Below are positions 4,041 through 63,476 of a stretch of 64,000 nt of DNA, one piece after another (the stretch's first letter is position 1; each line of letters starts with the position of its first letter). The notes beneath the pieces are model-generated. The model made no database searches, was not told the origin of the DNA, and saw nothing but the letters and a program-made list of their open reading frames with translations. Position numbers and translations under genes: made by a program. Origin of the DNA: Phlegmacium glaucopus (taxonomy: Eukaryota > Basidiomycota > Agaricomycetes > Agaricales > Cortinariaceae); assembly GCA_015039465.1 (NCBI GenBank), contig MU130033.1, positions 68,872 through 132,871 of the forward strand. Reading direction: 5' to 3'.

Positions 4041-4093
4041 CAAGATTGTTTGTTGGGTATCTGAAAGTATGCACCCATTTAGCATTGTTGAGA

Positions 4094-5413: not shown

Positions 5414-5529
5414 AGAATGGAGCTCTAAATCAAATAACATATTCACAAAATATTTCTTAACTCTTAACTTTATTGTGAAAAAAAAAACACCCAATTACTC
5501 AGCAAGGTATTTTGTTGACGAAGTCGACC

Positions 5530-6190
5530 ATTAGTACATAAGCTGATTCTATACAAGACGAGCGACAATCACTAACAACGATTAGGTTACGCCCGTGTTG
5601 ACTAAGCGAAATCCCCTTGTGGCTTCACTTTACCTAATCTCCTCTGCCCATTCAAGCCCGCTAGCCCGCTTGGAATCGGACTGGGGGGAGGTAGATGTTA
5701 TCAGGAACACGGGAGCTTCCGCGTATGACTGCTACCCTTTACCAGTTGGCGCTCATCTTCACCTTTGTACCCTTTCCGTTCCAGTGCAGGATGCTTCAAG
5801 TTTACCATTGATCAACATATCGTAGCGATTCCTGGCCACGCGATAAATAGCTATCCTTGACCACACAGAGTGGAGTGCTTATCTTCGAGTTTGAACACCT
5901 GCGCAAAATGCAACTCCATCACCTCAGCAAACTAACAGACCTGTTTTCAACACGGTAACGAAGTATATTGCGACAGGCCCTGAACATGAACTGCTATGAA
6001 CTGGATATGGTCAACGTCGCTCAATGATAGTGTCGAAAATCAGATCGTATTGGCGGAACAACCAAAAGACCCAGCAATTAGCGTGTCCACGAGTGCTGCG
6101 GCTGCTACTGTCAATACTAGAGCTCAAACGACAGGTCATATATGTGTTCTGCGCATCGAGACTCGATAATCAAAGATCTCTATTATTGTA
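5530..6190 (+). pseudogene. Decayed gene of unknown family, copy F1 (paired with 15210-15780)
   Basis: This segment is an inverted paralogue of 15210-15780. Shared features are an intron-like GTATGACTGC...TTCCAG block near 5725-5790, a THxPTHRVECL/DQHIVA exon in broken frames, and a C-terminal exon readable as NQIVLAEQPKDPAISVSTSA near 6040-6110. Compared with the other copy it has a 120-base extra piece near 5578-5700 and frameshifts near 5850 and 6025. I do not recognise the protein. The two copies bracket the small secreted-protein cluster. Confidence 0.45.
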
Positions 6191-6199
6191 GTTGCATCA

Positions 6200-6486
6200 G
6201 TAAAATGACAGGCTGCTAGAATGACTGGAGCCAGTAAGTCCAGTCGTTCCAGCTTGCCAGCAGATCAACTGGACCTATGTTGACATGCCCGAATCCAGCG
6301 CATCTGCTGGCAGACAAATTTGCTGGCAACAGTCCTCGGAACTAGAGCCAGTACACAGCCCTGGTACAAGTATGTCAAAATCCCATCTTTTCTGTTCATT
6401 TTCACAGATACTGCACGTAAATTATTATATTATTCAGCTGTACACTATTAGCGTTAGGTGTTCTGGTATAATTAGATTAAATACAT
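6200..6486. other. Short spacer, no gene recognised
   Basis: Unique-looking sequence with a CTGGAGCCAGTAAGTCCAGT imperfect inverted motif near 6220. The chance reading frames are shadows of the trinucleotide tract that follows. Confidence 0.4.
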
Positions 6487-6835
6487 CGTCGTCGTCATCG
6501 CCGTATGTTGTCCTCACCATACATTGTCATTATCGTATGTCGTTGTCATCATACATCATACATCATCATCGCCGTATGTTGTTGTCGCCATACGTTGTCA
6601 CTGTCGTATGTCGTCGTCGTCATACGTCATGATTGCTGTATGTTGTCGTCGTCGTATGTCATCTTCGTATGTTGTATGTCATCGTTGTTGTTGTTATACA
6701 TCGTATGTTGTCGTCGCTGTATATCGTCGTCACCATACAGCCTATTAAGATAAAAAATAACCCCTCATTCAGAGGGGTTGCCGTCAGTGCCATGGCTTTA
6801 TAAAGAAAGAAAGAAATACCCCCTAGGGGGACAAG
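6487..6835. repeat. TCG/TTG trinucleotide tract with C/G hairpins
   Basis: 6487-6735 is a degenerate array of units like CATACGTTGTCACTGTCGTA and TCGTCGTCGTATG. It is followed by an AT-rich AAGATAAAAAATAAC spacer and a hairpin AACCCCTC-ATTCA-GAGGGGTT at about 6757-6780, then a second palindrome CCCCCTAGGGGG near 6820. The same layout (trinucleotide tract, A-rich spacer, C-run/G-run hairpin) recurs four times at 30370-31200. The long reading frames here are low-complexity artefacts. Confidence 0.65.
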
Positions 6836-7989
6836 ATTTATCATGATGGTCCCCCAAGCCCAGACGAAGTAGGGCGGTGAAGGGGGCATGAGGGATGTAT
6901 ACAGACTGGGAATGTCGTAGTGGTCATGATGGGACCCCCTTCGTCTCAAAGCTCAGAGCGGTGTGGGGAAGGTACCTTGGGTTTTCGCTTCGATGGAGTA
7001 GAAGGGTTGTCGACGAGATGGTTCGATTGTGATGGTGCGATTGTTCACGTTCACGTTCGCTTCAATGGTGATGTTCGCCATGTTGAGAAGAAGAAGGTCC
7101 TGCCATCCTGGCTACTATAAATGAGTAAAAATATTAGTTGAAAAATAAAGACAAATTGCTCACTACTAATTGATTGACAAGGACGATGCTGGTTTTGTAT
7201 GAAGGAAGGACGTCGTGAAAAAGTAAAGAAGAGCGATGTGTGTTGATAGGTAATGCAAATGAAAATTCGGGGGGAAGTTGATAGTTAAGAGGAAAGAAAA
7301 GGGCCGCATCCTTTTTCCCATTTTCATTACCGTTGTCGGGCCATTGTGGCAGGTGGCGGTGGTGGGAAGAGTAGTGATGTGGGAAATGTCGAACATGCAC
7401 ATATGGTAATTTGATGGAGCGCACAGACCAAGTTTAGGGCTGGTCTGTTGAACTTAGGAAAAAAATTAAAAAAATAAGGATTATCAGGATCACACTAAAA
7501 AAATAACTTACACTGGATATATAGTATTATGGAGTCCAATTTTATAGTAACATCAGTTGTCTGATTCAAATAACTACAAGATCAGTAAATTTGGCCTTTG
7601 GGATGGAAGTGTTAGACCTAGCAAAATGGTCTGGAGTGCTGGAGAAATTTTTACAAAACTTGAGAACTAGCTCTAGCACTTCTAGCAACTCTACCGCTTT
7701 CCAGCATTTACAGCCAGCCTAGCAATGTGTTATTTTCCTGATGTGAAGTTCAAAGAAGGTGAATGTTTTCTGATATAACTGGATCCTTCTTAAACAGTTG
7801 TTTGATTGGGCATCTGAGGGTTAGCATTTATTTTACAAGGAAAAGGGGATTTTTTTTTTTCATTCCTGTACCAGAACATTAAGTACATAGTACGAATGCT
7901 CTACCAAGACTTTTCTTCTTCTGCATATGTTCTGTCCCATTAAGACGGTTACTTTCGAGCAGTTCCCTGAGACGGGTGTCAATAATCTG
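6836..7989. other. Intergenic; 3' flank of small secreted-protein unit 1
   Basis: No recognisable gene. From about 7740 the sequence matches the 3' flanks of the other three secreted-protein units (shared GATATAACTGGATCCTTC, AGCATTTATTTTACAAGGAA, CATTCCTGTACCAGAACA and a TAAGTACATAGTACGAAT block), so the end of the duplicated unit is near 7740. Confidence 0.5.
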
Positions 7990-8455
7990 TCACAAAAGTT
8001 CGGTGGGTGGAGATCATACTGGTGTGCGTCTGGAGATTCGCCAACTGATCAATCTCCAGTCAGCTCACTCAAAGGGTGAGTCGCCGAGACGTGAGACAGG
8101 GGGTCATAGTGAACCGTCTTCGTTTTAAGAGAAAACCTGATGTTACTTGCCATCTTCTCATGCGAAGGAACTCCATATTGTAGCGGGCTTCATGTTGGAT
8201 CCAGCAGGACGATTGTGGCTGATATCCGTAAGAACGACTACGGGGTGTTTTCCTGCGTCCTGTGGGCCGAGATTTAGTGAGTCACCCGGATCCTGAACGA
8301 GAAGATATCATACACTGCTTCCTGGGGGGGTCAAAGTGCCTTGGGCTCCCAGTAAGGACCTGGCCGGGTGGACGCCGGCTGCCCGAGAGGCATAGGCACA
8401 GCTATCACCATCGAGCCGCAGAGGAGAGGGCAAAGACGAAGCGTTTGAAGGACAT
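7990..8455 (-). pseudogene. Small secreted protein gene, unit 1 (decayed)
   Basis: Minus-strand paralogue of the intact copy at 12247-12775. The start region (ATG at 8455, MSFKRFVFAL) is kept, but about ten bases of the signal-peptide region are missing, so the frame breaks within 20 codons. Exon 2 (SHNRPAGSNMKPA region near 8170-8230) also has indels. The intron position and 3' flank are conserved. Function unknown in all copies; this one is not expected to make the protein. Confidence 0.65.
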
Positions 8456-28151: not shown

Positions 28152-29167
28152 CAAGACTTTACACTCACCCACCAGTCCGATCGGAATCCGATCGGACTCT
28201 GAGTAATCCGATCGGAATCCGAGTAGTCCGAGTAAAAACATCAAAAGTCCGAGTTCAGTCCGAGTCAGTCCGAGTTCAGTCCGAGTTCAGTCCGAGTTCA
28301 GTCCGAGTTCAGTCCGAGCTGAGTCCGAGCTGAGTCCGAGTCCAAGTAATTTTTTACTTGGACTCGGACTCAGCTCGGACTCAGCTCGGACTGAACTCGG
28401 ACTGCATCAGGAAAAATGATTTTGACACCTTTAGTGCATCCTGGTGCATTGACCATCTGGATTAAATCACATCAGATCTGAGAAAATAGAGACCTACTAG
28501 CTACTTCTGTTAAGGTTTGGTTAAGGTTTGGTTAAGGTTTGGGTTAAGGTTTGGTTAGGGTTTTATTAAGGTTAGGGAGGTATATAGTTTCCATTCTGCT
28601 CAGATCTGCTCAGAATGCCTGCCAATCTGCTCAGATCTGATCAGATCTGGTGGATCACAGCAAAGACCTCAAATTTTCATATAGAATGTTTAACCGCTGC
28701 GTCCAGGAAAGTATTTTGCAATTTTCTCAATAAGGAGAGCTGCTATTAATATAATTTAAACATATTCAGGGTCCTAAAACAATTCTCTACCATCTTTAAA
28801 AAATTTCCTTTTTTGGAATCTTATGTAATCTACTCTGACCCACCATATGCTTGAAATCATGCTTATCTGTGATCATGTGACCAATGGTCTGTGTGGGAAG
28901 AGGACAAACATGGGTACAAACATGGGTACAAACAAGTAGTCTAAGCAATTTACTTGGACTAAGTCTGAGTAAGTCCGATCAGAATCCGATCAGAATCCGA
29001 TGACACACAGTCCGATCAGATTCCAAGTAGTCCGAGCAATTTACTCGGACTGAACTCGGACTGGGCTCGGACTCAAAACTTGAAAATGGCTGGTGCTCCA
29101 GCCAAATTTGAGTCCAATCGGACTGCTCGGAATCCGATCGGAATTAGTGGCTTAGTGTAAAGACCTC
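28152..29167 (-). mobile_element. hAT-like MITE family 1, copy 2 (TSD GGGAGCAA)
   Basis: 1016 bp with ends CAAGACTTTACACTCACCC and GGCTTAGTGTAAAGACCTC, flanked by perfect 8-bp GGGAGCAA (28144-28151, 29168-29175). Subterminal repeats of GTCCGAGTTCA and GATCAGAATCC. Opposite orientation to copy 1. It sits in the satellite and contains an extra 200-bp piece (about 28475-28672) ending GGTGGATCACAGCAAAGACCTC, the same terminus as copy 3, so a truncated copy is nested in it. Confidence 0.85.
28519..28585 (+). repeat. Degenerate TTAAGGTTTGG/TTAGGG-like run
   Basis: Five or so units of GGTTAAGGTTT with one TTAGGG and a terminal GTTAGGG. It superficially resembles a degenerate telomeric repeat but lies inside a MITE. 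Confidence 0.5.
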
Positions 29168-29827: not shown

Positions 29828-31793
29828 CAGTACTCTTCAGTCCCCCACCAGAGCTGATCAGATCTGATCAGAACCCACCAGAACTAATCAGATCTGATCA
29901 GAACTGATCAGAATTGGTCAGAACTACTCAGATCTGATCAGATCTGATCAGAATCTGACCAGAACCGCTCAGAATCTGAGCAGTTCTGAGCAGTTCTGAC
30001 CAATTCTGGTCAGATTCTGAGCAGATCTGACCAAATCTGAGCAGATCTGACCAGAATCTGCAACACATATAAGTCAATTCCTACTAACTCATATTTTTTC
30101 TAAAATTTCTAACATATTAATTTAAATTTAAATTTAAATGGATTAATTATACATTTTGAGGGGGGATTAGTTACTAGTACATTAGAATAACAAAATACAT
30201 TAGTTGATATCAGAGAAATGAAATCAAAATACTAAGTGGTCAAAATGAGTGGGTAGAGTGGGTGTGAAATGAATGGGCAGGTGGTAGAAAGGGGGGGTGA
30301 TGGGTGCAAAACGGGGGTGATGGGTGTAAAAAAGGGGGGATGGGTGCAAAACGGGGGTGATGGGCGTAAAACGGGTGTATGTGGGTGGTCGAAACGGACG
30401 ACGACGAGGAGGCATCGCCGTCGTCGTTCGTTGTCCGTCATCATCGTCGTTGTCCGTCATCGTTGTCGTTGTCCGTTGTCGTTGTCCGTTGTCGTTGTCC
30501 GTTGTTGTCATCGTTGTCCGTTGTCGTCATCGTTGTCCGTCATCGTTGTCCGTTGTCGTCATCGTTGTTTGTCGTCATCGTTGTCGTTTGTCGTTGTTGT
30601 CGTGGCTTGTGGTTTGTCATCGTTCGAAAACTAATTAAAAAAACCCCCCTGGTGAAAGGGGGGGTGGTGATGGTGTGTCGAGGTTGAGGCATGGTAGTAG
30701 TGGGGATCTGGTGGTAATTAGTAAGGTAGAATTAAAAATAAAATAAAAACAAACAAAAACCCCCTCGAGAGGGGGGGGGTAGCCGTCACCGCCGTCGTCC
30801 ATCGTGTTGTACGTCGTTGTAAGCCGGTGGGTGTCGTTTGTCGTCGTCACATTGGTCGTTCGTCGTGATACAGGTCGTGTGTTGTTGTTGTACGTGTGTA
30901 CGTGTCGTGTGTCGTCGTCGTGCGTGTCGTACGTCGTACATGGCCTAATACAACATGTTAGTAGTCAATTAAAATAAAATGATGTAAAAAAATACCCCCT
31001 GGTGAAGGGGGTTACTGTTGCACGTCGTCATCGTCGTAGTGTCGTACATTGTTGTGGTGGTGTCGTACGTTGTTGTTGTTGCTCGCTATCGTTGTCGTAT
31101 GTCGTACATGACTATTGTAAGTCGTTAGTAATGAATTAAGATAGAATAAAATAAAAAATACCCCCCCTCACCAGGGGGGGTTACCGTTGTTACATGGCTG
31201 TTGTCGTTGTGCTGCCACTGTCGTTCGTTGCCGTTATTCGTTGCCGTTATTCGTTGCTGTTGTTGTGTAGTGGGTATTAGCATATAATGGGGGTCAATAA
31301 AACAATCGACTTACCTTTTTATGACCACAGACGATGCTGAGCATCGTCTGTGGTCGTCGTTACTGGCCGTGTGACGGTGTGAGAGACAGAGAACGAAATC
31401 AACATTACTTGTGCAAGTCACATGTGATCACGTGATCACACCCCTCGCACTGAACAAAATACACGATTTTGATGGCAACAAGGTCATTGCCATCTAATCT
31501 CAATATAGTGCTACTTGACATATTACCATAATTATATTATTTTTCTAGTAAACTCAAGTGGTTCATTTGCTGATCTCACTTAATCTGAATTCTGCTCGGA
31601 AATGGTCAGATTCTGCTCGGAAATTGGTCAGAATTAAATCTGATTAGATCTGATCAGATCTGGTATTTCTGATCAGATCTGATCAGAATCTGGTCAGAAA
31701 AATTGGCTCTATTACTGCCATTTGGGCTTGTAAAAATTCTGACCGGAATCTGATCAGATCTGATCAGATCTGGTGGATCACAGCAAAGACCTC
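29828..31793. mobile_element. hAT-like MITE family 1, copy 3, 1.97 kb (TSD CAACATAG)
   Basis: Left end CAGTACTCTTCAGTCCCCCACCAGAG and inverted right end GAGGTCTTTGCTGTGATCCACCAG share the terminus; a perfect 8-bp CAACATAG flanks it (29820-29827, 31794-31801). Subterminal regions are dense in the palindromic TGATCAGATCTGATCAGA motif. The interior carries the trinucleotide/hairpin module array (30370-31270) instead of a transposase. Removing it restores the frame of the host gene. Confidence 0.85.
30370..31270. repeat. Modular array: TCG/TTG tracts alternating with C-run/G-run hairpins
   Basis: Four modules. Each is a CGTCGTTGTCC-type tract of 100-250 bases followed by an A/T spacer and a hairpin: ACCCCCCTGGTGAAAGGGGG near 30642; AACCCCCTCGAGAGGGGGGG near 30756; TACCCCCTGGTGAAGGGGGT near 30990; TACCCCCCCTCACCAGGGGG near 31158. 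Reading frames here are low-complexity shadows. It matches the layout at 6487-6835. Confidence 0.8.
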
Positions 31794-39094: not shown

Positions 39095-40507
39095 TGTCGC
39101 GCACCAATACTGGTTGGTAGTGTGAGAAGAAAGCTTAAAAGTTGCCATCATGAAAATAAGCGGACTTTGAATTTGCTTACCTATTTTGGAAGTGGCCCTG
39201 AATCGCGTTCCTGGTCAACAAAACCATTCGTTCAACGATAACATCCTCATCGCTCATCATATCCTCAATGTCTTCCACTATGTTGTCTATCATTTACACT
39301 ATTGACATGCTCCTTAACATCTACCATCCGTTTGTCCCTTGGCTAGTGATACAACAAAGCGATCAATCTACTATTCGCATCGGTCATCGGCTCGCGTTTG
39401 ATCGTATCTTTGGCCCATCATTTCAAGAACGGCCCGTTTATGGACGCATCAGCCACATCTCCCATTATGTCAAAGGCTTTGTCATTGTTGTTGTGGCTAT
39501 GGACCCACAAGTCTTCGCTTCAGCTATCTATCTTGCCATACCTCGCTCCTGGATCTCACTCAGTCCCCTATCCTCACTCATCTACCTCTTATCTTATCAT
39601 TCACTGCCAAAACCATCATTCACGCGGTACCTGAAGCCTTCCCACCCTCTTTATGACAATTTAGGAAGTCCAGGAGGATCACGACTAAGCAGGAATTGCA
39701 GATGAATCAGCAGCAGAGGATTATTCTCGCAGTGTGTCAAGTGTTATCAAGGCTGCGCGACATGGGATCATGGGCAAGTAGTGTTTTCTCGGGAACAAGG
39801 CTGCGCCTTTCAAGTGTTGACTCAGGACCTTTCATATTTTTGACATGACCACACGCCTATGGAGTTGATATATTTTTGCTATTGGACTATGTACACTGCC
39901 TTCTTTTCTTTTCTCTCGCACTTTGACACTTTACAGATTTTTTTATTGTTCCTTCTTCTTTTCCATTGTTCTTTTCTTCTCGCAGCTGTCCTCTCTTTAT
40001 CTTTCTTCCTTTGACAGCGCGTACTTTGTTTCTTTTTATTGTTTTACATAGCCTCATCCTTAGGGTATAAATACTGCTCTTTTGTACCAGGATAGGTAGT
40101 TCAGTTCAATTCATTCTTACCCCCCACTTTCATCATCTCAGTGGAATTCCAGTGAATTCCTCCCTCAAGTTCGCTTTTTCAGCCTTTAACTGTCAATCTA
40201 TCCCCACTGTCAATTACTATAGTCTTGCTGAAGACTCCCTCTTATTCTTCCTCATCCTCTTCCTTAACCCCTCTGAGTTCGCTTTTTCAGTCCTTTACTG
40301 TCAATCCACTGTCAACTGCTATAGTCTTACTGAAGACTCTTTCTCATTCATCCTCATCCTTCTCATCTCTATTCCCACCCCCTACCTCTGTGTGATACAA
40401 GTCAAGGTTACACCTTCCCTAAACAAACAACAGGGAGGCTTTTGACTTAAAGACTAGTCCATTGCTCTCTGGTTGGTGTTTTATAACAACACAAACAACG
40501 ATTTATA
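39095..40507. mobile_element. Element D, copy 1 (1413 bp, TSD GCGT)
   Basis: Starts TGTCGCGCACCAATACTGG and ends AACAACGATTTATA, with GCGT at 39091-39094 and 40508-40511. Removing it with one GCGT rejoins RNase H and integrase in frame (..STDIDTDA + ADTLCSLL..), which fixes both ends. Features: a 145-codon frame at 39268-39705 kept in all copies, a CT-rich half, a strong TATA element GGGTATAAATACTGC at 40063-40077 and a downstream CAGTTCAATTCATTC start-like region. No transposase, no polyA tail, no long inverted repeat. Could be the solo LTR of an unseen retroelement or a new non-autonomous class. Confidence 0.85.
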
Positions 40508-45316: not shown

Positions 45317-45351
45317 TAGTGCATGTGTGTGAAACAGACATGCGTTCAGAG

Positions 45352-45910
45352 TGTTACATTCCGTTATACGTTACTCCGTTCCGGCTCTGTCGGAGCTGTT
45401 TCTGGTAGTCCGTACTCCGTACAGTGCCTTCCCTTATATCCCGAACTACTCTTCTTATGTTCAACTCCGAGACTTCTCCGTGTCATTCCGGTTCCTCCGT
45501 CTATACTCCAAACCCGTTATCACTTCTTCGCCACTACCACTATTCTTTGTCATCATCTTTCCCATCATCAGTCAGCATACCCGCCATGGATTATTCACCC
45601 AAGAATGCAGAACCTATCCGGGAGCAGAACGCAGCACTTATATTTATCTCTTATATTTCGGTTGCTGTTCCTTTATTTATTTAAGTACTCGAAACTTGTA
45701 TGTTTTCCCTCAGTTCAAATATCAACTTTGTTTCCTCCTCTTGTTCGTCCTCTAAGTCACTGAGGTCTTCCGTCTTATTACTTCTTCTTCCATTCCAAAA
45801 TCAGGACACCTTAGGAGCTGGGCGGCACAGCACACACGCTGAGGCCAACGTCCTTTCCGCTTACTGTTCCGGAGTAACTCTGACGTGACTTCCTTGTTTT
45901 AAACTTAACA
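45352..45910 (+). mobile_element. Solo LTR, family C (TSD CAGAG)
   Basis: 559 bp, TGTTACATTCCGTTATACG to TTTTAAACTTAACA, perfect CAGAG on both sides (45347-45351, 45911-45915). Same family as 4426-4993 in inverse orientation. The apparent ORFs are LTR shadows. Confidence 0.9.
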
Positions 45911-46339
45911 CAGAGGAGTTAATATGTTACAACTTCAAACGGTTCAGAGAGTTCTGACTGTAGACAGTCGTATAAAGATCGTTCGTTCGTTCAGTGAGCT
46001 CAAAAAAATGCTAAGAGAATAGTCTTGAAGCAGAGTCTTAGGAGTTTGAGAGAGTTTGAGAGTTTAAGCAACCAGAGGTAGATTCTCAAGAATTAGCTAA
46101 GGTTACATTGAGTAGTAAATACTGTATTTATAGTAAATAGAGAGAGTCGTGCAAAAGGTGAAACAAGTGCATGTAAGTGAGTATGCATATGTATAAATAG
46201 ATGAAATGATGAAAAGAGGAAGGTAAGCATGTGGGAGTGGAGATGAAAGGAAGACATAGAATGCATGTAAGTGAAACGGGCATGTGTTCGGTGGAGATAA
46301 AGAAAAAGAAAAGAAAGTTCGTAACATTACCCCCATTTT

Positions 46340-47219: not shown

Positions 47220-47355
47220 CTGTCTTAGTTGAGGTGATGGGCTTGTTTATAAAGCATCAATGTGTCGTCAGCATTTTTGATGTGTGTTTTGGGTTCCCAC
47301 ATTGTTTTGGAGATTGGATAATCTTTCCATCGGATCTTGAATTGATATCCGTGTT
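47220..47355 (-). pseudogene. A2 chromodomain fragment left of element D copy 2
   Basis: The last codons of the A2 chromodomain (sequence parallel to 37680-37790 of A1), with several substitutions and a stop; cut at 47355 by element D. Confidence 0.6.
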
Positions 47356-48766
47356 ATCGCGCACCAATACTGATTTGTAGCATGAGAACAAAGCTTAAAA
47401 GTTGCCATCATGAAAATAAGTGGACTTTGAATTCACTTACCTATTTTGGAAGCAGCCCTGAATCGCGTTCCTGGTCAACAAAATCATTCGTTCAACGATA
47501 ACATCCTCATCGCTCATCATATCCTCAATGTCTTCCACTATGTTGTCTATCATTTACACTATCGACATGCTCCTTAACATCTACCATCTGTTTGTCCCTT
47601 GGCTAGTGATACAACAAAGCAATCAATCTACTATTCACATCGGTCATCGGCTTGCGTTTGATTGTATCTTTGGTCCATCATTTCAAGAACGGCCCCTTTA
47701 TGGACGCATCAACTACATCTCCCATTATGTACAAGGCTTTGTCATCGTTGTTGTGGCTATGGACCCACAAGTCTTCCCCTCAGTCATCTATCTTGCCATC
47801 CCTCGCTCTTGGATCTCACTCAGTCCCCTATCCTCACTCATCTACCTCTTATCTTATCATTCACTGCCAAAACCATCATTCACGCGGTACCTGAAGCCTT
47901 CCCACCCTCTTTATGACAATTTAGGAAGTCCAGGAGGATCACGACTAAGCAGGAATTGCAGATGAATCAGCAGCAGAGGATTATTCTCGCAGAGTGTCAA
48001 GTGTTATCAAGGCTGCGCGACATGGGACCATGGGCAAGTAGTGTTTTTCTCGGGAACAAGGCTGCGCCTTTCAAGTGTTGACTCAGGACCTTTCATATTT
48101 TGACATGACCACACACCTATGGAGTCAATATATTTTTGCTATTGGACTATGTACACTGCCTTCCCTTCTTTTCTCTCGCACTTTGACACTTTACAGATTA
48201 TTTTACTGTTCCCTTTCTTTTCCATTGTTCTTTTCTTCTCGCAGCTGTCCTCTCTTTATCTTTCTTCCTTTGACAGCGCGTACTTTGTTTCTTTTTATTG
48301 TTTTACATAGCCTCATCCTTAGGGTATAAATACTGCTCTTTTGTACCAGGATAGGTAGTTCAGTTCAATTCATTCTTACCCCCCAACAATCATCCTCTCA
48401 GTGGAATTCCAGTGAATTCCTCCCTCAAGTTCGCTTTTTCAGTCCTTTAACTGTCAATCTATCCCCACTGTCAATTACTATAGTCTTGCTGAAGACTCCC
48501 TCTTATTCTTCCTCATCCTCTTCCTTAACCCCTCTAAGTTCGCTTTTTCAGTCCCTTACTGTCAATCCACTGTCAACTGCTATAGTCTTACTGAAGACTC
48601 TTTCTCATTCATCCTCATCCTCCTCACCTCTACTCTTGCTCCCTACCTCTGTGATACAAGTCAAGGTTACACCTTCCCTAAACGAACAACAGGGAAGCTT
48701 TTGACTTAAAGACTAGTCCATTGCTTTCTGGTTGGTGTTTTATAACAACACAAACAACAATTTATA
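47356..48766. mobile_element. Element D, copy 2 (1411 bp)
   Basis: Starts TATCGCGCACCAATACTG and ends AACAACAATTTATA. Flanks GTGT (47352-47355) and GCAT (48767-48770) differ by two transitions, consistent with a decayed 4-bp duplication; the host reads CCGTG/TCCTCG without it. Same orientation as copy 1 and highly similar through its length, including the 145-codon frame (47528-47965) and the TATA region near 48324-48334. Confidence 0.8.
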
Positions 48767-50097: not shown

Positions 50098-50959
50098 TCC
50101 ATCCCACCCTTCGGTAGGTGATGTCCCGGCATGAAAGGAAACTGTTCGAATTTGGCCATCCTGATGTGCTTAGGAGCTCCGGGGTACTTCTTGTGGAACT
50201 CCACGACTAATTTGGGGGCATGTATGTTTTCCCGAGGCTCCCAGGTGTTATGTTCAATTCCAAAGTCTTGCCACTTCACGAGGTATTGGAATCTCCTGTT
50301 TATAACTCTGCTGTCAAGGATTTCCTCGACGACCCATTCCTCTTCTCCATCAATGATTTCCGGAAGTGGGGGAGTCGGAATGCGTCTTCCAGGGATTGGG
50401 TCTATCAGGGCTGGAGTTAGTTTGACTATGTTGAAGACCGGATGGAGTCATTTCATGGACAAGGGAAGTTGGAGTTGGTAAGCGTTGTTGCCAACTCGTT
50501 CTTCGATCGGAAAGGGGCCTAGGTGCCGATGGGACAATTTCCTGGATGGTCTTGTTGTTTGTATGTCGCTGGCATCCAGGTATACTTTGTCTCCCAGTTT
50601 GTATTCCGGTGCTGAAGTTCTTTTCTGATTATAATACCTTGCCATGTCGTCTTTAGACTTGACCAGTGCTGCTTTTGCTTCATCTAGGGTGTTCCGCATC
50701 TGTTCCGTGAATTCATTAACGGACTCCATTCGGGATTCCGGTTGGTTTGGTTCAAAACCCATTTGGGGGATTTGTCCGGAGTCTAGGAGGAAAGGTGGGT
50801 GCTGTGTGGCAGAGTGGACATGATTATTGTACTGGAATTCTGCAAGGGGAAGGAGTTCGGCCCAATTGGTTTGTCGCTGGTTTGTAAAGAGTCAGAGATA
50901 CTGTTCCAGTTCCTGATTTACTCGTTCTGTCTGGCCGTCTCCTTGCGGATGATAGGCGG
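50098..50959 (-). pseudogene. Element B integrase C-terminus and chromodomain, frameshifted
   Basis: 50762-50448 reads MRNTLDEAKAALVKSKDDMA, KRTSAPEYKLGDKVYLDASD and HRHLGPFPIEERVGNNAYQL; a frame change near 50450 leads into HPVFNIVKL-type sequence, then the chromodomain with VKWQDFGIEHNTWEPRENIH and EFHKKYPGAPKHIRM. GC content and motif order are typical of chromovirus pol tails. At least two frame changes make it non-functional. Confidence 0.8.
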
Positions 50960-52368
50960 TATAAATCATTGTTTGTGTTGTTATAAAACACCAACCAGAG
51001 AGCAATGGACTAGTCTTTAAGTCAAAAGCCTCCCTGTTGTTCGTTTAGGGAAGGTGTAACCTTGACTTGTATCACACAGAGGTAGGGAGCAAGAGTAGAG
51101 GTGAGGAGGATGAGGATGAATGTGAATGAGTCTTTAGAAAGACTGTAGCAGTAGACAATAGGTTGACAGTAAGTGACTGAAAAAGCGAACTCAGAGGGGT
51201 TAAGGAAGAGGATGAGGAGGAATAAGAGTCTTCAGTAAGACTATAGTAATTGACAGTGGGGATAGATTGACAGTTAAGGGCAGAAAAAGCGAACTTGAGG
51301 AAGGAATTCACTGGAACTCCACTGAGATGATGATTGTTGGGGGGTAAGAATGAATTGAACTGAACTACCTATCCTGGTACAAAAGAGCAGTATTTATACC
51401 CTAAGGATGAGGCTATGTAAAACAATAAAAGAAACAAAGTACGCGCTGTCAAAGGAAGAAAGATAAAGAGAGGACAGCTGCGAGAAGAAAAGAACAATGG
51501 AAAAGAAAGGGAACAGTAAAATAATCTGTAAAGTGTCAAAGTGCGAGAGAAAAGAAGAGAAGGCAGTGTACATAGTCCAATAGCAAAAATATATCGACTC
51601 CATAGGCGTGTGGTCATGTCAAAAATGTGAAAGGTCCTGAGTCAACACTTGAAAGGCGCAGCCTTGTTCCCGAGAAAAACACTACTTGCCCATGATCCCA
51701 TGTCGCGCAGCCTTGATAACACTTGACACACTGCGAGAATAATCCTCTGCTGCTGATTCATCTGCAATTCCTGCTTAGTCGTGATCCTCCTGGACTTCCT
51801 AAATTGTCATAAAGAGGGTGGGAAGGCTTCAGGTACCGCGTGAATGATGGTTTTGGCAGTGAATGATAAGATAAGAGGTAGATGAGTGAGGATAGGGGAC
51901 TGAGTGAGATCCAGGAGCGAGGGATGGCAAGATAGATGGCTGAGGGGAAGACTTGTGGGTCCATAGCCACAACAACAATGACAAAGCCTTGTACATAATG
52001 GGAGATGTAGTTGATGCGTCCATAAAGGGGCCGTTCTTGAAATGATGGACCAAGGATACGATCAAACGCGAGCCGATGACCAACGCGAATAGTAGATTGA
52101 TCGCTTTGCTGGATCACTAGCCAAGGAACGAACGGATGGTATATGCTTAGGAGCATGTCGATAGTGAAAACAATGGAGAGCATAGTGTGAGACATTGAGA
52201 GTATGATGAGCAATGGGGATGTTATCGTTGAACGAATGATTTTGTTGACCAGGAACACGATTCAGGGCTGCTTCCAAAATAGGTAAGTGAATTTGAAGTC
52301 CGCTTATTTTCATGATGGCGACTTTTAAGCTTTCTTCTCACGCTACCAATCAGTATTGGTGCGCGATA
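50960..52368. mobile_element. Element D, copy 3, inverse orientation (1409 bp, TSD GCGG)
   Basis: Starts TATAAATCATTGTTTGTG and ends TACCAATCAGTATTGGTGCGCGATA; GCGG flanks both sides (50956-50959, 52369-52372). Removal rejoins the integrase motif around ATTA + YHPQGDGQTERVN in element B. Carries the conserved frame (51758-52258 minus) and the TATA block near 51396-51406 (minus strand). Confidence 0.88.
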
Positions 52369-53924: not shown

Positions 53925-55399
53925 TGTTTTTGCAAGGTAATCAAAGGATTACCGTTTTTAGGAATTTGTCTACAACAAATCCAGAAACCAATAACTTTAA
54001 TGACCAACAAACTCTGTTTTTGTGCAAGTTGGGGTTTCCTTGAAAGTATAACCAGTATACTCTTGAATAAAACAACAATACACTTTTAAAGTCCAAACGT
54101 TCTAGACTATGATTCAAGTTTAAAGTCCAAATTTCTCTAGACTATGATTCTGATAACAAGTTTATAGTCCAATTTCTTAGACTATTATATAGTGCTTTTT
54201 GATAGAACAAAGGCAAGTCCCTATAGGATTTAATATCCTTTGTCTATATGATAACCAATTTTGGTAGTAAAAAGACAAGCCCCTTTAGGGTTTAATATTC
54301 TTTGACTATCCACAACAAATGATTTAAAGTCCCTGAGGCAGACTGTGAGACAGCTTTATAGTACAAGGATTTCTCCTCAGACTCTGACAAAGGATTTAAT
54401 ATCCTTGCTTCCAAGACAAGTCCCTAAAGGATTTAATATTCTTGGTTTACACAGAACAAAGGTAAGCCCCTTTAGGATTTAATACCCTTTGAACTGAGTG
54501 AAGCAAAGCAAGTCCACTTGTAATTCCAATTCTAACTTGTGCCAATTCAGAGCGCTGAAACTTGGGAAAGAAAGGAAGAGTGCAAATTCACTAATTTTAC
54601 CGGTGCTTTCTAGCTACTTTTATACATAAATGAGAAACAAAATTAGGTAAGAGTCTGTGATGTCATGTCTATGTTTTATGATTACTGATGCTATTTTATG
54701 ATGTCATGTTTTGTTTTATGATGTCATGTCTTGTTTTTGGATGATAAATCTGGTCTTGTTTTATGATGTCATGTCTTGTTTCTAGATGACTGATCATTGT
54801 TTTATGATGTCATGTCTTGTTTCTAGATGACTGATCATTGTTTTATGATGTCATATGTTTCATAATGTGACAAAATGTGACAAAATGTTACAAAAATGTT
54901 ACAAATGTCACGAAATGTCACATGATGTCACATGGTATCACATGATGTCACATGTATCACATGATGTCACATGATGTCACATGATATCACATGCTTCATT
55001 ATTAGGACCTTTTATTGATATTTGACTTACTGATGTTATCCTTAGGACTTGTATAACAATCCTTCATAGTTGTAGACTTTGATAGTTACTTTAGATTGCA
55101 AGTAGTTCATTTGACCATTATGGATTTTGTATGGTTAGAGTCTGAACATTTTGTAGTGTTGTTTTAACAGTATGATAAATAGATCAATTCAGATCATAGT
55201 TATCTGCTGCTTTAACATTTATTACTATGCAATTTCCAGTTTAATCAACAAGTGTAGTCAACACTTTTGACCCTTACAATATCAATTTGTAGATTAATTC
55301 ATGGTTGGGTTATTGATCTTGTTGATTCAATTGAAGAATAATATTATGAAAAATTGAATAATCCATAGGTATTCAACTTTCAGTCCTATCACCGAATTG
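53925..55399. repeat. Repeat-rich AT sequence with TGATGTCA tandem arrays
   Basis: 54060-54540 holds short diverged repeats (AAAGTCCAAA..CTAGACTATGATT; AAGTCCCTAAAGGATTTAATAT). 54650-54860 is a tandem array of TTTTATGATGTCATGTCTTG with GATGACTGATCATTG spacers; 54870-54990 is dense in CACATGATGTCACATG. No gene. It borders the truncated RT of element B and the mirrored block, so it may itself be the remains of an insertion. Confidence 0.6.
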
Positions 55400-56753
55400 C
55401 AAGAGGTTCAAGATACATGATTTCGCCCATCCCTCTATCCACACCACGCCTGTCTCCCGTCCTGGAATTATCCTTTTGGCCTCCCTATCACCTCAACCCC
55501 GTCTTTAAACTCTTGTTGTCATACCGCCATCCTTTTGGTCGCCCTATCACCTCAATCCTGAGTCATTCCCCGGTCTGGCCTCCGATGCTAAATTGCAATC
55601 TCTGGTGTTATATACCCAGATTGCGAGTTAGTTTTCTCAATGGCCAAATCATTGACTCTCCAGTTATCTTGGTTGATTCTGGGGTTGGAGTACTGGGTAA
55701 ATATCGTCGGTACGAATCCGCTCTTACTTCATCTTTACTCCGATCGAGGGTAAGTAGAGAGCTACACTTTCCTATCATATCCACGGGAAAGGAGTAAAAC
55801 CATATAGACAGGAACAGTGTAACTAGGTATTTACAGAGAGGTGCAGGCTTCTGAACCGGTCTACATCCTACTAAGAACTATAATTTACCTAAAGCGGACA
55901 GAAGTCCCAAACCCCTACATCTGCGACCTTCCCTTCTTACTCTACTCCGACCGTCTATTAGAAGACGACATAGGTATTTTGGTCCGCCAAGTTTTGAAAC
56001 AACTGGGTACAGTAGTGAAAGTCTATAACGACCTGGGCTAACTTCTCACCACCACTATAGCTATGTGAGAAACTTCACGCAGTTCGTCCTCCTTTTGCCG
56101 ACCAAGTATACAACGTCTTCTGACCAGACCAGGAACTTGAAGAAAGGTGTAGCCCCTGTCACCCGCCTTCCGTATCTACGTTCCAAACCAATCCGTCATA
56201 TTCAACACTTTCTACATCTATTTCTAGTCACTCTAGTTTACAACCATACTAAGAGTGCAAACAGTAGTCAACTCTGAAGAGACCCGCTAAGTATCTCCAA
56301 ATATCACCAAGAGGACCGGACTCAAGTGAGCTATTCTTCCGTCCTCCATGTTTTCGACACCAATATCTACGAACATCCTACTGTTATTCTGACTATACAA
56401 CCCGCGATTTAGGCTAATCTTCCTGTCTTGACCGGTACCGCCGGGTTGTAACAGGGTTGTCATACCATCGGGACTTGTAGATAGGTTCTTGTTTGATTCA
56501 CTGCTCAAATTACCGAATCCTCGACCTCTAACTCCCCATCATAATTTCTGCAACCTTCCTTACCCTTCCAACCACTACTTGCTCCGAGACAACTTCAGTA
56601 GGAACAAAATCTACTTCCTGTTGAATAGCTCCCACATTTTCGCCGTCTCTTCCAACCAAATCCCAAATGCGAACCTGCCACATAGTCGGCTCTGTCCCAA
56701 CCTAAATCCGCCACTACCATAAAACCCTCATTTACTTTTACCCTACCTCTAGC
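55400..56753. other. Mirror-written block (reversed, not complemented)
   Basis: Between the AT-rich repeats and the N-run the sequence makes biological sense only when read right to left without complementing. In that reading it contains a C-rich leader and a 161-codon Plavaka N-terminus (56174 down to 55689). Neither normal strand has a recognisable product here. The right edge is the N-run at 56754; the left edge is placed at about 55400 from the composition change and is uncertain. The direct C-rich repeats near 55450 and 55530 (CCTTTTGG.C.CCCTATCACCTCAA) read the same in either view. Confidence 0.85.
55689..56174. CDS. Plavaka transposase N-terminus, readable only in mirror orientation
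   Basis: Reading the plain string from 56174 backwards gives ATGCCTTCCGCC... and 161 codons before a stop. Residues 1-32 are a C2H2-like finger (PRCGKKFKDQTSLLQHM), as at the start of Plavaka proteins. Residues 60-95 are a Ser/Pro/Asp-rich linker, then HPTSGQVFGRGETFMDQCDK and YYPFTSRDEWELASFLLHSR, LSMAAIN, the conserved N-terminal block of the family. The expected next region would run into the gap. The strand is given as '.' because the gene is on neither strand of the sequence as supplied. Confidence 0.85.
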
Positions 56754-57744
56754 NNNNNNNNNNNNNNNNNNNNNNNNNNNNNNNNNNNNNNNNNNNNNNN
56801 NNNNNNNNNNNNNNNNNNNNNNNNNNNNNNNNNNNNNNNNNNNNNNNNNNNNNNNNNNNNNNNNNNNNNNNNNNNNNNNNNNNNNNNNNNNNNNNNNNNN
56901 NNNNNNNNNNNNNNNNNNNNNNNNNNNNNNNNNNNNNNNNNNNNNNNNNNNNNNNNNNNNNNNNNNNNNNNNNNNNNNNNNNNNNNNNNNNNNNNNNNNN
57001 NNNNNNNNNNNNNNNNNNNNNNNNNNNNNNNNNNNNNNNNNNNNNNNNNNNNNNNNNNNNNNNNNNNNNNNNNNNNNNNNNNNNNNNNNNNNNNNNNNNN
57101 NNNNNNNNNNNNNNNNNNNNNNNNNNNNNNNNNNNNNNNNNNNNNNNNNNNNNNNNNNNNNNNNNNNNNNNNNNNNNNNNNNNNNNNNNNNNNNNNNNNN
57201 NNNNNNNNNNNNNNNNNNNNNNNNNNNNNNNNNNNNNNNNNNNNNNNNNNNNNNNNNNNNNNNNNNNNNNNNNNNNNNNNNNNNNNNNNNNNNNNNNNNN
57301 NNNNNNNNNNNNNNNNNNNNNNNNNNNNNNNNNNNNNNNNNNNNNNNNNNNNNNNNNNNNNNNNNNNNNNNNNNNNNNNNNNNNNNNNNNNNNNNNNNNN
57401 NNNNNNNNNNNNNNNNNNNNNNNNNNNNNNNNNNNNNNNNNNNNNNNNNNNNNNNNNNNNNNNNNNNNNNNNNNNNNNNNNNNNNNNNNNNNNNNNNNNN
57501 NNNNNNNNNNNNNNNNNNNNNNNNNNNNNNNNNNNNNNNNNNNNNNNNNNNNNNNNNNNNNNNNNNNNNNNNNNNNNNNNNNNNNNNNNNNNNNNNNNNN
57601 NNNNNNNNNNNNNNNNNNNNNNNNNNNNNNNNNNNNNNNNNNNNNNNNNNNNNNNNNNNNNNNNNNNNNNNNNNNNNNNNNNNNNNNNNNNNNNNNNNNN
57701 NNNNNNNNNNNNNNNNNNNNNNNNNNNNNNNNNNNNNNNNNNNN
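56754..57744. other. Assembly gap (991 N)
   Basis: Run of N. In the restored order the Plavaka gene is missing roughly 450 residues here, about what 290 unread bases plus this gap would supply, so the gap estimate is plausible. Translations across it are meaningless. Confidence 0.98.
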
Positions 57745-59602
57745 ACGCTCGCACAACTCCATGTGGTGGAGGAAAAAGCTGATCCATGGGATCTGGAAGC
57801 TTATTTTAAGGCAGCTTCACAGTTCCATTTGAATGGCATTCATCGACCATTTTGGGTGAATTGGCCTATGTCCGATCCATCCGTATTCCTAACACCAGAA
57901 CCGCTGCATCACTGGCATAAAGCATTTTGGGACCATGATGCCAAATGGTGCATAAACACTGTTGGTGCCGCTGAGCTTGACTTTCGTTTCTCCGTCCTTC
58001 ATCAGCATGTGGGATTCCGACAGTTCAAAGAAGGCATATCGTCTCTCAAACAGGTTACTGGTCGTGAACACCGAGAGATCCAGCGCTACATTGTTGCTGT
58101 GATTGCAGATGCTGTTCACCAGACTTCCTTGTTGCCATCCGATCTCTGATGGACTTCCGTTACTTGGCTCAATCTATGCAGATTGATGAACCAATGTGCG
58201 CAAAGATCGATGCAGCACTAAAGGAATTTCATACTCACAAGGATTCGATCATTGCTGCGGGGGCTCGACGGGGGAAAAACCATGTTATTGATAACTGGTA
58301 TATTCCAAAACTGGAATTTCTACAGAGTGTCGTTCCAAGTATTCGCGCAAACGGTATTGCACTCCAATGGTCAGCAGATGGAACGGAACGTGCTCACATT
58401 GAAGTGATAAAAGATCCTTCAGATTTCTCCAATAACCAAAAATTCGAGTCTCAAATTTGTCAACATCTTGATCGCATAGAGAAATGTCAGCGATTCGACC
58501 TTTTTACAGCAGTTCGTGATGCCAAAGTAGACTTTTGCGCAAGGTTTTCTACAAATGGCTCTTCAGAAGAAGACAATAGCGACTGTGCAAGTGTTGCCAG
58601 CGATGACTCAACTATTGAGACAACGGCTAACCTTGTCAATCAAATAAATCCTGTATCAGCTCTCTCAGGCAAGTCCTCGCCCTCTCACATTGACTATTTC
58701 GCCAAAGCTGCTGACCTCAAGAAAAATCCTCCATCTGGCCGAGTACCACAAGCGCAACCACATACATTTTCCTCACCTCAAGCAGCCTTCCATCTCAACC
58801 GCGATCCATCATTTAATAAGCCTATCAATGACATAGCTACTTTGTTCAACATTCCAGATTTACATGAAGCACTCTCCGACTACATACAATGTATCGCTAA
58901 TGCTAACGATGGATATATCAGAGTCCTTGGTGGCCGCCGCTCTGCATCTCAAGGATCTCAATTACCATTTACTCACTTACAGGTGTGGACAAAACTTTGT
59001 TTGTAAAATAAAGCATATCATTATCCACATGAAACTCTCCCATCCAAGACTGTAAATGCATGTCCTCCATCTGGTGAATGGGAGTTGGGGCGCTACAATC
59101 CAGTCATCGTCAATCTGGATCCAGATTTTGAATGGCCACATAGCCGCCTTGAAGGTATGGATATCATAGATTTCAGTTCATTGGTTGAATATCCTGCTAA
59201 CCTCCAATCTTTCAAGGTCATCAAGTCGCGGAATTATGTCTCATCTTCCGTATTATTCAACGCACAAGATCCCTCTTTCATGGAGATTGTTTCCTTACAT
59301 ATGCACGTTGTTTTGATATTGTACCCCAGATCAACAAAAACATTTCAGGTTCATCCACAGCTCGAGGACCTTACCCTGAGGCAAAATCATCATTATATAT
59401 TCTCAAACGGGCAAGGCGAGCCAATGGCGAACTCATTGGCGACATACTTCCTTTGCAGCAAGTAAGAGCGCCTGTTGACCTGACTCCTTGTTTTGGAAAT
59501 GTAGCCGATCGCCGCCTCACCAAGTATAATTCCTCTACCTACTGTTCAGAATTCCGGTTGAATAAGTACTTTGACAAGGAACTTTATCTATCTCTTTCTT
59601 AG
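57745..59602 (+). pseudogene. Plavaka transposase C-terminal half
   Basis: Open from the gap edge: KADPWDLEAYFKAASQFHLN, HRPFWVNWPMSDPSVFLTPE, PLHHWHKAFWDHDAKWCINT, VGAAELDFRFSVLHQHVGFR, SLKQVTGREHREIQRYIVAV. A one-base frame change near 58122 leads to LMDFRYLAQSMQIDEPMCAK, PKLEFLQSVVPSIRANGIAL, QWSADGTERAHIEVIKDPSD, ICQHLDRIEKCQRFDLFTAV. Further frame changes or an intron after 58990 lead to GRYNPVIVNLDPDFEWPHSR, ILKRARRANGELIGDILPLQ and NKYFDKELYLSLS before a TAG at 59602. The order and motifs are those of Plavaka (CACTA-related) transposases of mushrooms. The catalytic core would lie mostly in the gap and cannot be judged. Confidence 0.85.
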
Positions 59603-60339
59603 CTTTACTTCTAGCTTTCCTTATTAAAATTCATTTCATTAGATACATGTATCTGGCTGTTTGTTCGCTCTCATATTACAATGTAGTTTGAATGAAATAT
59701 ATTTGAAAATAATGACTATTAGAATTCATATTAAGGATATCTACCGGATAGCCTGGGATTCATAATGCATGATAGTAGTAATGGATCCCTTGCAGTGCTC
59801 TACAATGTGATATAGTGAACTCTACAATGTGATATAGTGAACTCTGCATTTGGGACAGTGCTGGACAGTGCTAGCAAGCGCGACATGGATACTATGGGCA
59901 CTATAAGGCACTATAACAAACTATAATTTTGGCGATGTGACTGTGACAAGCTATGGGAATTTCCTGATTTTGCTGATGCTAGTGCCAACAGGCAGTGATT
60001 AGTGCCCTATATCCAAGGCACTCCAGTCATGGATGCCTTCACATGCTACACTATGCCTCCAGTCACACCTCCTTAAAAGTTTGCACACAGTGAGTATCTC
60101 TTTCTGCCCAGTGCCCATTTCCTAAATTGGGCATGTCTAGTCAGCTCCCCACACTCAGGAATCACACATCAGTAAAATAGCATTTCAGATTCCGTGTTTC
60201 CAAGAGTTTTCATTTGTTTCTACATGATTCTGGGTTTTCAGAAGCCTGGAAACACAGAAACACAGAAACTCTGCAGTTCTTACATTGTATGACAACAAAA
60301 ATGCTAAGTATTCAGTCACTACAAAATTTAATCTACCGA
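59603..60339. other. AT-rich, small tandem repeats, no gene
   Basis: Contains a 25-bp direct repeat GCTCTACAATGTGATATAGTGAACTC at about 59796-59845 and CTATAACAAACTATAA-type inverted motifs. The 3' end of the Plavaka element should lie here, but no terminus could be fixed. Confidence 0.4.
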
Positions 60340-60622
60340 AATAATACTACTAGTTACTAGTAACTAGTAAGACTACGACTAGCTGATGCTAGTGGGGAAT
60401 TAACTGTGCAGTGGTGGCTTTATATAAGTAACTGGCCTCAGGGTTAGCTCGCTAGAAATCACCAGAATATTCCATCAATTCCAGTTGTCAGTGTCAAGCA
60501 ATTGATGGAATATTCTAGCGAACTAACCCTGAGCCCATTTACTTATATAAAGGCCACCACTTTTCACCCAATTCCCATGAGCATCTGCTCATCATATGTA
60601 GTCTTACTAGAGTAGTTATGTA
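60340..60622. mobile_element. MITE-like imperfect hairpin
   Basis: Inner arms GTGGTGGC.TTTATATAAGTAA..CTCAGGGTTAG..CTAGAA..AATATTCCATCAATT (60411-60480) and their inverse (60499-60560) pair around an 18-base loop; pairing continues outward to CTAGTAAGACTAC (60365-60377) and GTAGTCTTACTAG (60599-60611). At the left edge is the perfect palindrome ACTAGTTACTAGTAACTAGT. No ORF; target duplication not fixed. Confidence 0.7.
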
Positions 60623-61234
60623 TGTAAATTGTTAAATTCGAAGTTTCCTAGGTTCCCACACCCCACCCAACAGGCATGTTTCCTGGAAAAGGGACATAAG
60701 TTTCCTGATGTCTGAGTTTCCATAGTTTCTGTGTGTTTTCTCATGTTTTCTATGTTGTGCAACCTCTGGAAACTCAGATGCAAAGTTACTGATGCAGCCC
60801 ATCTTAGATTGTTTTTCTCAATGACACTCATAGATCAAGGCCCTTTTTTCAGTCAAAAAATCCTTCCAAGCTTTTGCCCCAAACCCTAATACTACCTTTA
60901 ATATACATCTTTGATTAGCTAAACTATCTCTGATCTCTCAGATCAGCTTTCTCCCCAATAACATAACCTTCAACTGCATAGACCCGGGTTTCCTCTCTTT
61001 TATAGGAAATTTCCGGGTTGCCCAGGTGGAGAAACTACAATGCTAAAGTACTGATGTACTGATTGCACAGCTAAGATTACTATTGCTCAAAGCAATGATG
61101 GTAATACTTGGCATGGAAATAGTTGATTCGCAAATATATTTCTACATATCTCGATTCTCTTAATTCGAAGTATGTCACTGGCCCCAATGTAAAAGGGCAG
61201 ATTAATCAGGACAGTGAGCATCATCTAACATGTA
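60623..61234. other. Intergenic, no gene
   Basis: Short chance frames only. Convergent end of the glutamine-synthetase-like gene; no terminator recognised. Confidence 0.45.
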
Positions 61235-62892
61235 CTAGTAAAATTGAATCAGGCGCTCCAATTTCTCCGTCTCATCTTCATCCTGGTCAAGAGCCTCCGC
61301 CAGAGTCTAAAACAATCAGTAAGTAATGAATTATAACTTTATTAGAAAGAAAAAAATATAGAAACTTACCTTGTTTACCGATAAATATTTATCGCAGAAC
61401 TCTGCCCCGAGGACTTTTGAAAGTTTTGCATCAGAAGCGAAGTTTTCCCTCGCTTCGTCCCAACTGAGGGGCATTCTTTTAGAGATTCCGAGAGCGCGAC
61501 GTTCGTCCTCAGACATTTGAGCAGCAGCTTTAGGTCCTGGGCAGTCAGAAATCGTGAGTTCGAGGTTTGACTGTATGCCCCGATACCCTGCGCCTAGGAT
61601 GCCCGCAAGGACGAGATAAGGACTCGCGGTACCGTCGATATAACGCATCTCAAATCGGCGGCTGGATGGAGAAGCTGAATTCGTGAGCCGTACGGGAGCT
61701 TCACGGTTCTCCGTTCCCCAACACACGTATGTTCCCCCTGACCAGACACCGTCGCCGACACGTTTGTATGAAGCAGGAATAGGAAGTGTAAGCGCAGGAA
61801 GTGAAGGGAGATGAGCCATAACTCCGGCTAAGAATGACTCTTCAACACTTGATAATTGGAGACCTTTCTTGATACGACCAGAATGGACGGATATATGGGC
61901 ATGTGCTGCACTTCCGGTGCTGTTCATGTATACTCGTGGTGCGAAAGTAGCACGCAGGCCATGCTTGGCTGCGATATTGTATATAAGTTCCCTTGTATGT
62001 ATCAAAGCGTCGGCGGCCTCTAAAGGAGGTAGTGGTCCAGTGACAATTTCATACTAAATCGAGGGTGTTGAATGGTCAGTGCGTTCAACTGTGAATTGTG
62101 TAAAAATAATGACAAACCTGTCCGGGCGCGGCTTCCGCATGATAAATTTGGAGTTCTATCCCAGATGATTCTATCGCATCCGCCATCTCAGCCATCACCG
62201 TTGTCGACGTTGCGCCAGATCGCAAGGCATCGGCCGAAGTCCATGCATGAATGCTTAAGGGCTCTATAGGATGGGTGGATTTGAGCAAGATGAATTCGGT
62301 CTCAAACCCTACGAGAAAATCGACATCGGAGGCGGTTTTGGCTTCCCTATCACATAAGATCAGAAAAGAAAGTTGGCACTGCTAATCGATCAGAATATAC
62401 TCGACAATACGACGGAGCATCCCCCGAGGACAAAAGTCGACTTGGACAGTTGGTTGGCCTTGAGCATCAATTACGCCAGCCTTTTCCTCGAACCATCCCA
62501 TTAAGCTTGCATGCCCAATTTCGTAGGGACAGGGCCTAATAGTTGATAGGTCTGGAGTGATCAAATATTCCCCCATCGGAACAAATCCAGGGGCGACTGA
62601 TAGGTATATAATGCCTAGGGTGACCTTTGCGACTGCAACGCCTGGTCTATTCCCTTCCAAGAGTTTCTTGAAGTAAGAGATAGGCATGATTCGGAATCGA
62701 ACGATGTTTGTGAAGTCGACCCATTGGAAACGAATGTATTCTATGTCAATCAAACCATCAAGAGATAAAATAAAAAGGTGATGAAGATGCAGACTTACTG
62801 ATGCCTGACTCTTCCAACTTGTCTACTGGGAGGGTGTTTGTCTTGATAGTTGAATGATGATATTCTACGCCGTGTTGAAATCCACTATCCAT
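61235..62892 (-). CDS. Glutamine-synthetase-like protein (GlnA/FluG type), five exons
   Basis: Exons 62892-62799, 62740-62401, 62346-62118, 62053-61370 and 61306-61235 join in frame through four 50-64 base introns with GT..AG ends, giving 472 residues. This is close to the length of class I-like glutamine synthetases and to the C-terminal GS domain of FluG. Visible motifs: IRFQWVDFTNIVRFRIMPIS in the N-terminal beta-Grasp domain; VDFLVGFETEFILLK (first metal-site region); IYHAEAAPGQYEIV; RATFAPRVYMNSTGSAAHAH (the H of the ammonia/glutamate site); GTENREAPVRLTN; RFEMRYIDGTASPYLVLAGI. Likely an ATP-dependent amide- or gamma-glutamyl-forming enzyme; the substrate of this fungal subfamily is unknown. 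The start at 62892 gives a typical polar N-terminus; an upstream exon is possible. Confidence 0.85.
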
Positions 62893-63476
62893 TGCAAGGA
62901 TGGAGAAGGGAGCGCCAGTCGTATAATCGCTATAAATCAAGAAGGAGCCTGAGAATGATAGAAAGTTGGGGCACAATCGCAAATATAACGTACAAACGGT
63001 AACCAAACGCGGCCGATGATCTGATCTTGATTCTTGAACGGTGCAGCTTCCGTCTTAATCGCTACATACTCTCCTCTTATCGGCGCCAATCATGCTTCTG
63101 GAGGTTTCGAGACCGTCGTGTTCGAGGCAGTCGTCGAATAATATTCAAGCGTAAACGTCACGTATCTTCTTAATCTGATCTTACACGATACTGTTTGACA
63201 AGTCACAAGAATAAAGGCCCGGGTAACGAAGAAGAAAGGCCCGGGTAATGGAAGTTCTGAAGGTCAACAAACAATAACTGGAGACTCAGATTCAAAACCG
63301 AATAAGGTTTCCATCTTCAGCCTGGCACTGGAAGATATACATAGTCGCCTCTGTCATGCACGGCGTCTATTGTACAACGGCGGAATCGGCGATCACAAAA
63401 AAAAATTAGCTACAGAACTCGGAACTCAAAAAATTGAGTAATACGATCACGTCAATAATGATGTCATCACGAAAAC
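62893..63476. other. Upstream region of the GS-like gene
   Basis: Contains a small direct repeat AAAGGCCCGGGTAA (63214 and 63236) and otherwise nothing recognisable. It is the likely promoter region of both neighbours. Confidence 0.4.

Follow-up and report, generated by a model that had tools for sequence, protein, structure and literature searches.

The DNA from 55704 to 56753 of the window is a stretch of Plavaka transposon written in reverse without being complemented, and it ends at an N-run (Table 1). The window is the whole stretch of 64,000 nucleotides analyzed here (G000:C27:68872-132871), taken from the 60.5 Mb, 259-contig assembly of Phlegmacium glaucopus. Such mirrored DNA recurs in this genome and is a systematic assembly artefact, not biology. 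As to its cause, we put at roughly 92% the probability that the block, one of 80 such places, was mis-written by the gap-patching step of the assembly and not by the fungus. The first-pass annotation had already read the region as a data artefact, reversed without complement beside a gap and hiding half a Plavaka gene, and a match to three natural copies together with an in-place junction bears this out.

The mirrored block and its Plavaka element

Reading leftwards without complementing, we found again the ATG-started frame of 161 amino acids at 56174-55689 on which that annotation was based. The frame carries a C2H2 finger, first noted as C-x2-C, and YYPFTSRDEWEL; the zf-C2H2 profile matches it at E 9.5e-05, with a bit score slightly under Pfam's cut-off. 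Its last 15 bases (55703-55689) fall outside the mirrored block. In a six-frame search of the same genome, the encoded protein returned 20 rows, the best of these Plavaka copies at 92% identity across residues 1-159 (E 1.3e-99), and 65 relatives were found in a database of 5.8 billion proteins. One natural relative (P0037) contains the start of the PF18759 domain (1-102), and the end of that profile (274-325 of 325) lies at window 57745-58146 (E 2.1e-12) in a right flank that also encodes PF20722 (DUF6830; E 9.8e-27). PF18759 places the element among the Plavaka transposons. The block corresponds to the N-terminal part of such a transposon, of which natural copies are present in the genome; the element itself is ordinary, and solely the spelling of the block is reversed.

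At the nucleotide level, the reversed string of 55399-56753 (1,355 letters) returned 16 rows from the genome. The top three, on contigs C49, C219, and C131, are 96-97% identical over 1,058-1,060 bases, and their alignments start at the gap edge (query base 3) and end near window 55704. In its written orientation, the block has no match in any of the natural copies fetched. The adjoining 55392-55703 aligns forward to the same three copies, and a breakpoint scan across 55690-55720 scored 55704 best against all three. When the forward left part and the in-place reversed block are aligned to these copies, they join without a lost base; in the natural copies, the 55392-55703 stretch directly abuts base 56753 of the block. 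The same DNA was retrieved as genome stretch L025, which is identical to window 54001-63000. The block lacks the mark of a mirror repeat or H-DNA, a single local polypurine tract with mirror symmetry: its match extends for about 1,060 bases and lies at other loci, not in a symmetric tract nearby.

These alignments revise the extent first assigned to the block, 55400-56753: the true breakpoint lies 304 bases further right, and 55392-55703 is ordinary forward DNA. The annotation had predicted Plavaka protein matches for the reversed string and a sharp breakpoint near 55400, and the former were obtained while the latter is at 55704. The window copy begins abruptly at 55391/55392. Further to the left, at least 25 bases common to three natural copies are absent here; therefore, the left end of the window copy is not the end of the element, and this copy is truncated or misjoined at its left end.

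Table 1. Features of the mirrored Plavaka copy and its surroundings (positions in the window).
Feature	Position	Strand	Basis
Mirrored block, reversed without complement, 1,050 bases	55704..56753	.	Three-copy identity and breakpoint scan
Mirrored 157-codon N-terminal Plavaka-family piece (C2H2 finger, YYPFTSRDEWEL)	55704..56174, read 56174 down to 55704	.	Frame and homology
Natural Plavaka DNA left of block	55392..55703	+	96.5% to L005/L027, 95.2% to L001/L028, 89.2% to L004/L026; junction alignment
N-run, 991	56754..57744	.	Sequence; three natural copies have 920, 1,293, and 1,944 bases between the flanks
Natural C-terminal portion of this transposon copy (PF18759 end, DUF6830)	57745..59979	+	L028, 95.1% throughout; L027, 97.1% as far as 59801

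Recurrence and anatomy of mirrored blocks

Reversed-string queries with several repeats, together with the window block, identified 95 mirrored rows. Counting rows more than 10 kb apart separately, these represent 80 places on 57 of the 259 contigs; 12 places were viewed closely, and the remaining ones are identified by the reversed match alone. The first-pass annotation had implied a single contig-end event, and the window block is indeed real, but it is one of these 80. Candidate numbers given below are first-look counts, of which only part was scored. The C-terminal part of Plavaka returned 5 rows when reversed vs 26 in natural orientation (the window's own included). For the Gypsy elements, the reversed reverse transcriptase (863 nt) returned three rows, of which two are weak and short (57 and 112 bases), vs 42 rows (149 candidates) when an overlapping piece of 1,201 bases was used in natural orientation as the control, and the integrase returned two reversed rows vs 42 natural rows (101 candidates). 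A 428-nt fragment of a 1.4-kb repeat yielded 50 reversed candidates (40 scored, 40 rows) and 745 natural ones (40 scored), and a 559-nt repeat yielded 61 reversed (40 scored, 44 rows) and 1,144 natural ones (40 scored). The mirrored share is thereby about 5-6% of first-look candidates in these two abundant repeats.

The longer of these repeats measures 1.41 kb and is present in three window copies (39095-40507, 47355-48766, and 50957-52366), the second matching the first at 95.5% and the third at 93.9%. Gypsy retroelements are interrupted at differing sites by the first and second copies, and one end of the repeat accounts for the 745 first-look candidates genome-wide.

Among the twelve closely viewed blocks, seven reach an N-run: the window block and those on C219 (L027), C200 (L038), C226 (L040), C73 (L041), C87 (L042), and C237 (L043). 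Contact is exact to the base in five of them, within 2 bases in L040, and within 10 in L041, and blocks lie on either edge of the N-run, some on the left and others on the right. The other five, on C51 (L039), C132 (L044), C203 (L046), C145 (L047), and C23 (L048), have no N within the 3.3-10 kb fetched.

Four of the twelve blocks are reversed in place and join natural sequence with a junction step of 0-2 bases: the window block, L039 on its right side (step 1 vs three references), L042 on its left, and L041 on its right, the L042 and L041 steps including the 1-10 bases before the block edge that did not align. The left side of L039 makes no clean join. The L027 junction is ambiguous, with a step of 0 or -105 depending on how the repeat is aligned, those of L038 and L046 are approximate only, and the other five blocks are without a usable junction reference. 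Two further observations concern individual loci. Positions 1-1660 of L039 (G000:C51:85001-95000) combine negative handedness with reversed matches to L026 and may be a second mirrored block on C51. In L043 (G000:C237:636001-645000), the gap-side end of the block repeats the 162 bases that precede it at 92.6% identity (2399-2560 and 4336-4497), which could reflect a tandem repeat or, alternatively, a patch overlap that was left untrimmed.

A homology-free measure of handedness, in which an order-4 strand-symmetric Markov model scores each stretch against its own reversal, also singles out the block. Across 245 bins of 1 kb, the window has a mean of +35.7 (sd 15.6), and the minimum, -34.5, falls inside the block; in the other loci with mirrored blocks, the score likewise goes negative across those blocks. 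Random natural windows of 1,050 bases, which were themselves part of the training set, scored positive in 187 of 188 cases. With local sequence excluded from training, the lowest of 250 bins falls in the block for model orders 1 through 4 but elsewhere for order 5; at orders 1 and 2, window 30751 is nearly as low. A two-state segmentation of the window additionally flags 28484-28587, 30710-31376, and 45348-46146; in other loci it flags some short stretches, and one repeat in L047 is misjudged. The region at 30251-31500 is low-complexity GTC repeat with weakly negative handedness, and within it 30401-31500 is GTC/GTT-rich with C/G-run hairpins. The k-mer suggestion of a second mirrored block at 45348-46146 was rejected, as 1,144 genome candidates share its handedness vs 61 reversed, and the stretch is natural.

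Finally, we searched for mirrored 16S in other public genomes, using one 22-letter pattern, without a forward control, on a collection covering 84,980 prokaryote species. The two pattern matches both lack the other expected 16S signatures and are attributed to chance. With a single pattern and no forward control, all that this result shows is that prokaryote assemblies do not commonly contain mirrored 16S cores.

An apparently split TPR-repeat gene and a database protein

The block on C226 (L040:3548-5810) encodes, once reversed, TPR repeats (TPR_10, E 8.1e-102, seven stretches). Its natural neighbor contains further TPR repeats and, on the minus strand, a frame lying upstream, and judged from these sequences a TPR-repeat gene appears to be split by the block. 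The gene (L040, G000:C226:56001-66000, positions 3548-8000) contains highly similar repeats of about 126 bp and has its 3' part mirrored, and presumably resembles fungal NLR-type proteins.

When the as-written frame of this block was compared with the protein database, one protein was found among 7,994 scored candidates: BYT27DRAFT_7265694 (P0066), an NCBI entry from P. glaucopus. Its residues 1-200 are 80% identical to the mirrored array as written and match nothing in the natural stretch L040:5811-10000, and its residues 202-254 are 96% identical to the reversed, natural-form block. On the simplest reading of these matches, BYT27DRAFT_7265694 would be a gene model that spans a junction of mirrored and natural DNA on another contig (24,366 bases). 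It is likely, then, that at least one false NCBI protein has been produced by a mirrored stretch. A second search of this kind, with one as-written frame from the C132 block, gave no match in the protein database.

Origin and meaning of the reversal

We propose that the blocks are long-read patches that would have been added onto short-read contigs, some of them mis-oriented by the patcher. A patch taken from the opposite strand would be the reverse complement of the true sequence, and complementing it without reversing it would leave the true sequence reversed; if the program omitted this one reversal for minus-strand patches, the blocks would be accounted for, and plus-strand patches would stay correct. 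Blocks at gap edges would represent extensions, and blocks without N, including the five with none visible, are probably closed gaps. A location at a gap edge (7/12 blocks at an N-run) and a flush, in-place reversal (4/12), as patched gaps should present, were both found; the side of the N-run on which a block lies follows no evident rule, which counts against this account.

PBJelly is the program that we suspect. We take Cortinarius glaucopus to be the older name of Phlegmacium glaucopus, and AT 2004 276, a strain under P. glaucopus, to be the sequenced strain. A study naming C. glaucopus (PMC7550596) describes hybrid assemblies made with ALLPATHS-LG and patched with PBJelly in a passage that does not specify the strains concerned, and a passage of PMC8480192 lists other tools for the genomes that were sequenced in that study. 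Reports of reversed, uncomplemented assembly errors or of an orientation fault in PBJelly were absent among the matches listed for the open-licence literature, and an excerpted account of PBJelly (PMC8081667) mentions no such fault. The phrase "reversed but not complemented" occurs, among the matches listed, only in PMC8920891, a paper on reporter assays. Known misassemblies from long-read gap filling (PBJelly, LR_Gapcloser, and similar tools) resemble the blocks in placing wrong sequence in or beside what we infer to be former gaps. Excerpts of three gap-filler papers (PMC6324547, PMC8848313, PMC6733440) name relocation, inversion, translocation, lower identity, and overfilling as error classes and likewise mention no such fault; unlike these classes, the mirrored blocks are reversals without complement, invisible to searches of the two real strands.

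Other sources of the reversal can be weighed against the same blocks. A scaffolding or export stage, unrelated to patching, might have flipped short contigs without complementing them, and it is consistent with blocks that are reversed in place and in several cases end at N-runs. However, 5 of the 12 blocks join other DNA without N in the fetched stretch, and the left junction in the window continues inside one transposon copy without N, which is unexpected of a flipped separate contig. The first-pass annotation was right that data handling reversed a string and had placed the error in scaffolding; since the fault recurs across the assembly, also without visible N, a gap-fill step fits better, and we regard a scaffolding or export flip as unlikely. 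It is more improbable still that only the analyzed copy of the genome was damaged and the deposited record is sound: an NCBI/nr protein of the species is itself part mirrored and part natural TPR, and the sizes of C219 and C244 equal those in the NCBI listing for two P. glaucopus proteins (431,567 and 302,236).

The block might also be ordinary unique DNA with a mirror frame that arose by chance. The annotation had held that so long a frame cannot do so, yet another ATG-started frame of 160 amino acids arises by chance in the complement string at about 44093; frame length alone is therefore insufficient, and homology decides. The 92% protein identity over 159 residues and the 96-97% DNA identity over about 1,060 bases refute chance, whose probability we consider effectively nil. 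That mirrored DNA is truly present in the cell, through some unknown biological process, has recurrence and nothing more in its favor and is scarcely credible. Template copying is antiparallel, and 7 of the 12 block edges reach N-runs. No process is known to us by which a copy could be made reversed and uncomplemented; to our knowledge, the only reversed DNA known in cells comes from deliberate synthesis, and the synthetic DNA of one such study is reportedly uncomplemented. Synthetic reversed sequences (PMC11006607) are reversed DNA as well but, according to the excerpted text, were put into cells deliberately, whereas the reversal here is a text error in an assembly.

A fault in the gap-patching step, as we prefer to read these blocks, matters beyond the window because reversed, uncomplemented DNA evades the tools that consider two strands, namely similarity searches, repeat maskers, gene finders, and inversion callers. 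In the P. glaucopus reference, a transposon gene is split, a TPR-repeat gene appears to be, and about 5-6% of two abundant repeats are hidden by first-look counts. We tentatively suggest, at slightly under even odds, that a patching fault in a much-used hybrid assembly recipe wrote reversed, uncomplemented patches into many public genomes. If so, the affected genomes would hold hidden half-genes and false orphan proteins that strand-aware searches cannot detect, and a simple scan of reversed strings or of k-mer handedness would reveal both. If patching is the cause, other genomes patched in the same way can be checked directly by a reversed-string search of each assembly against itself.
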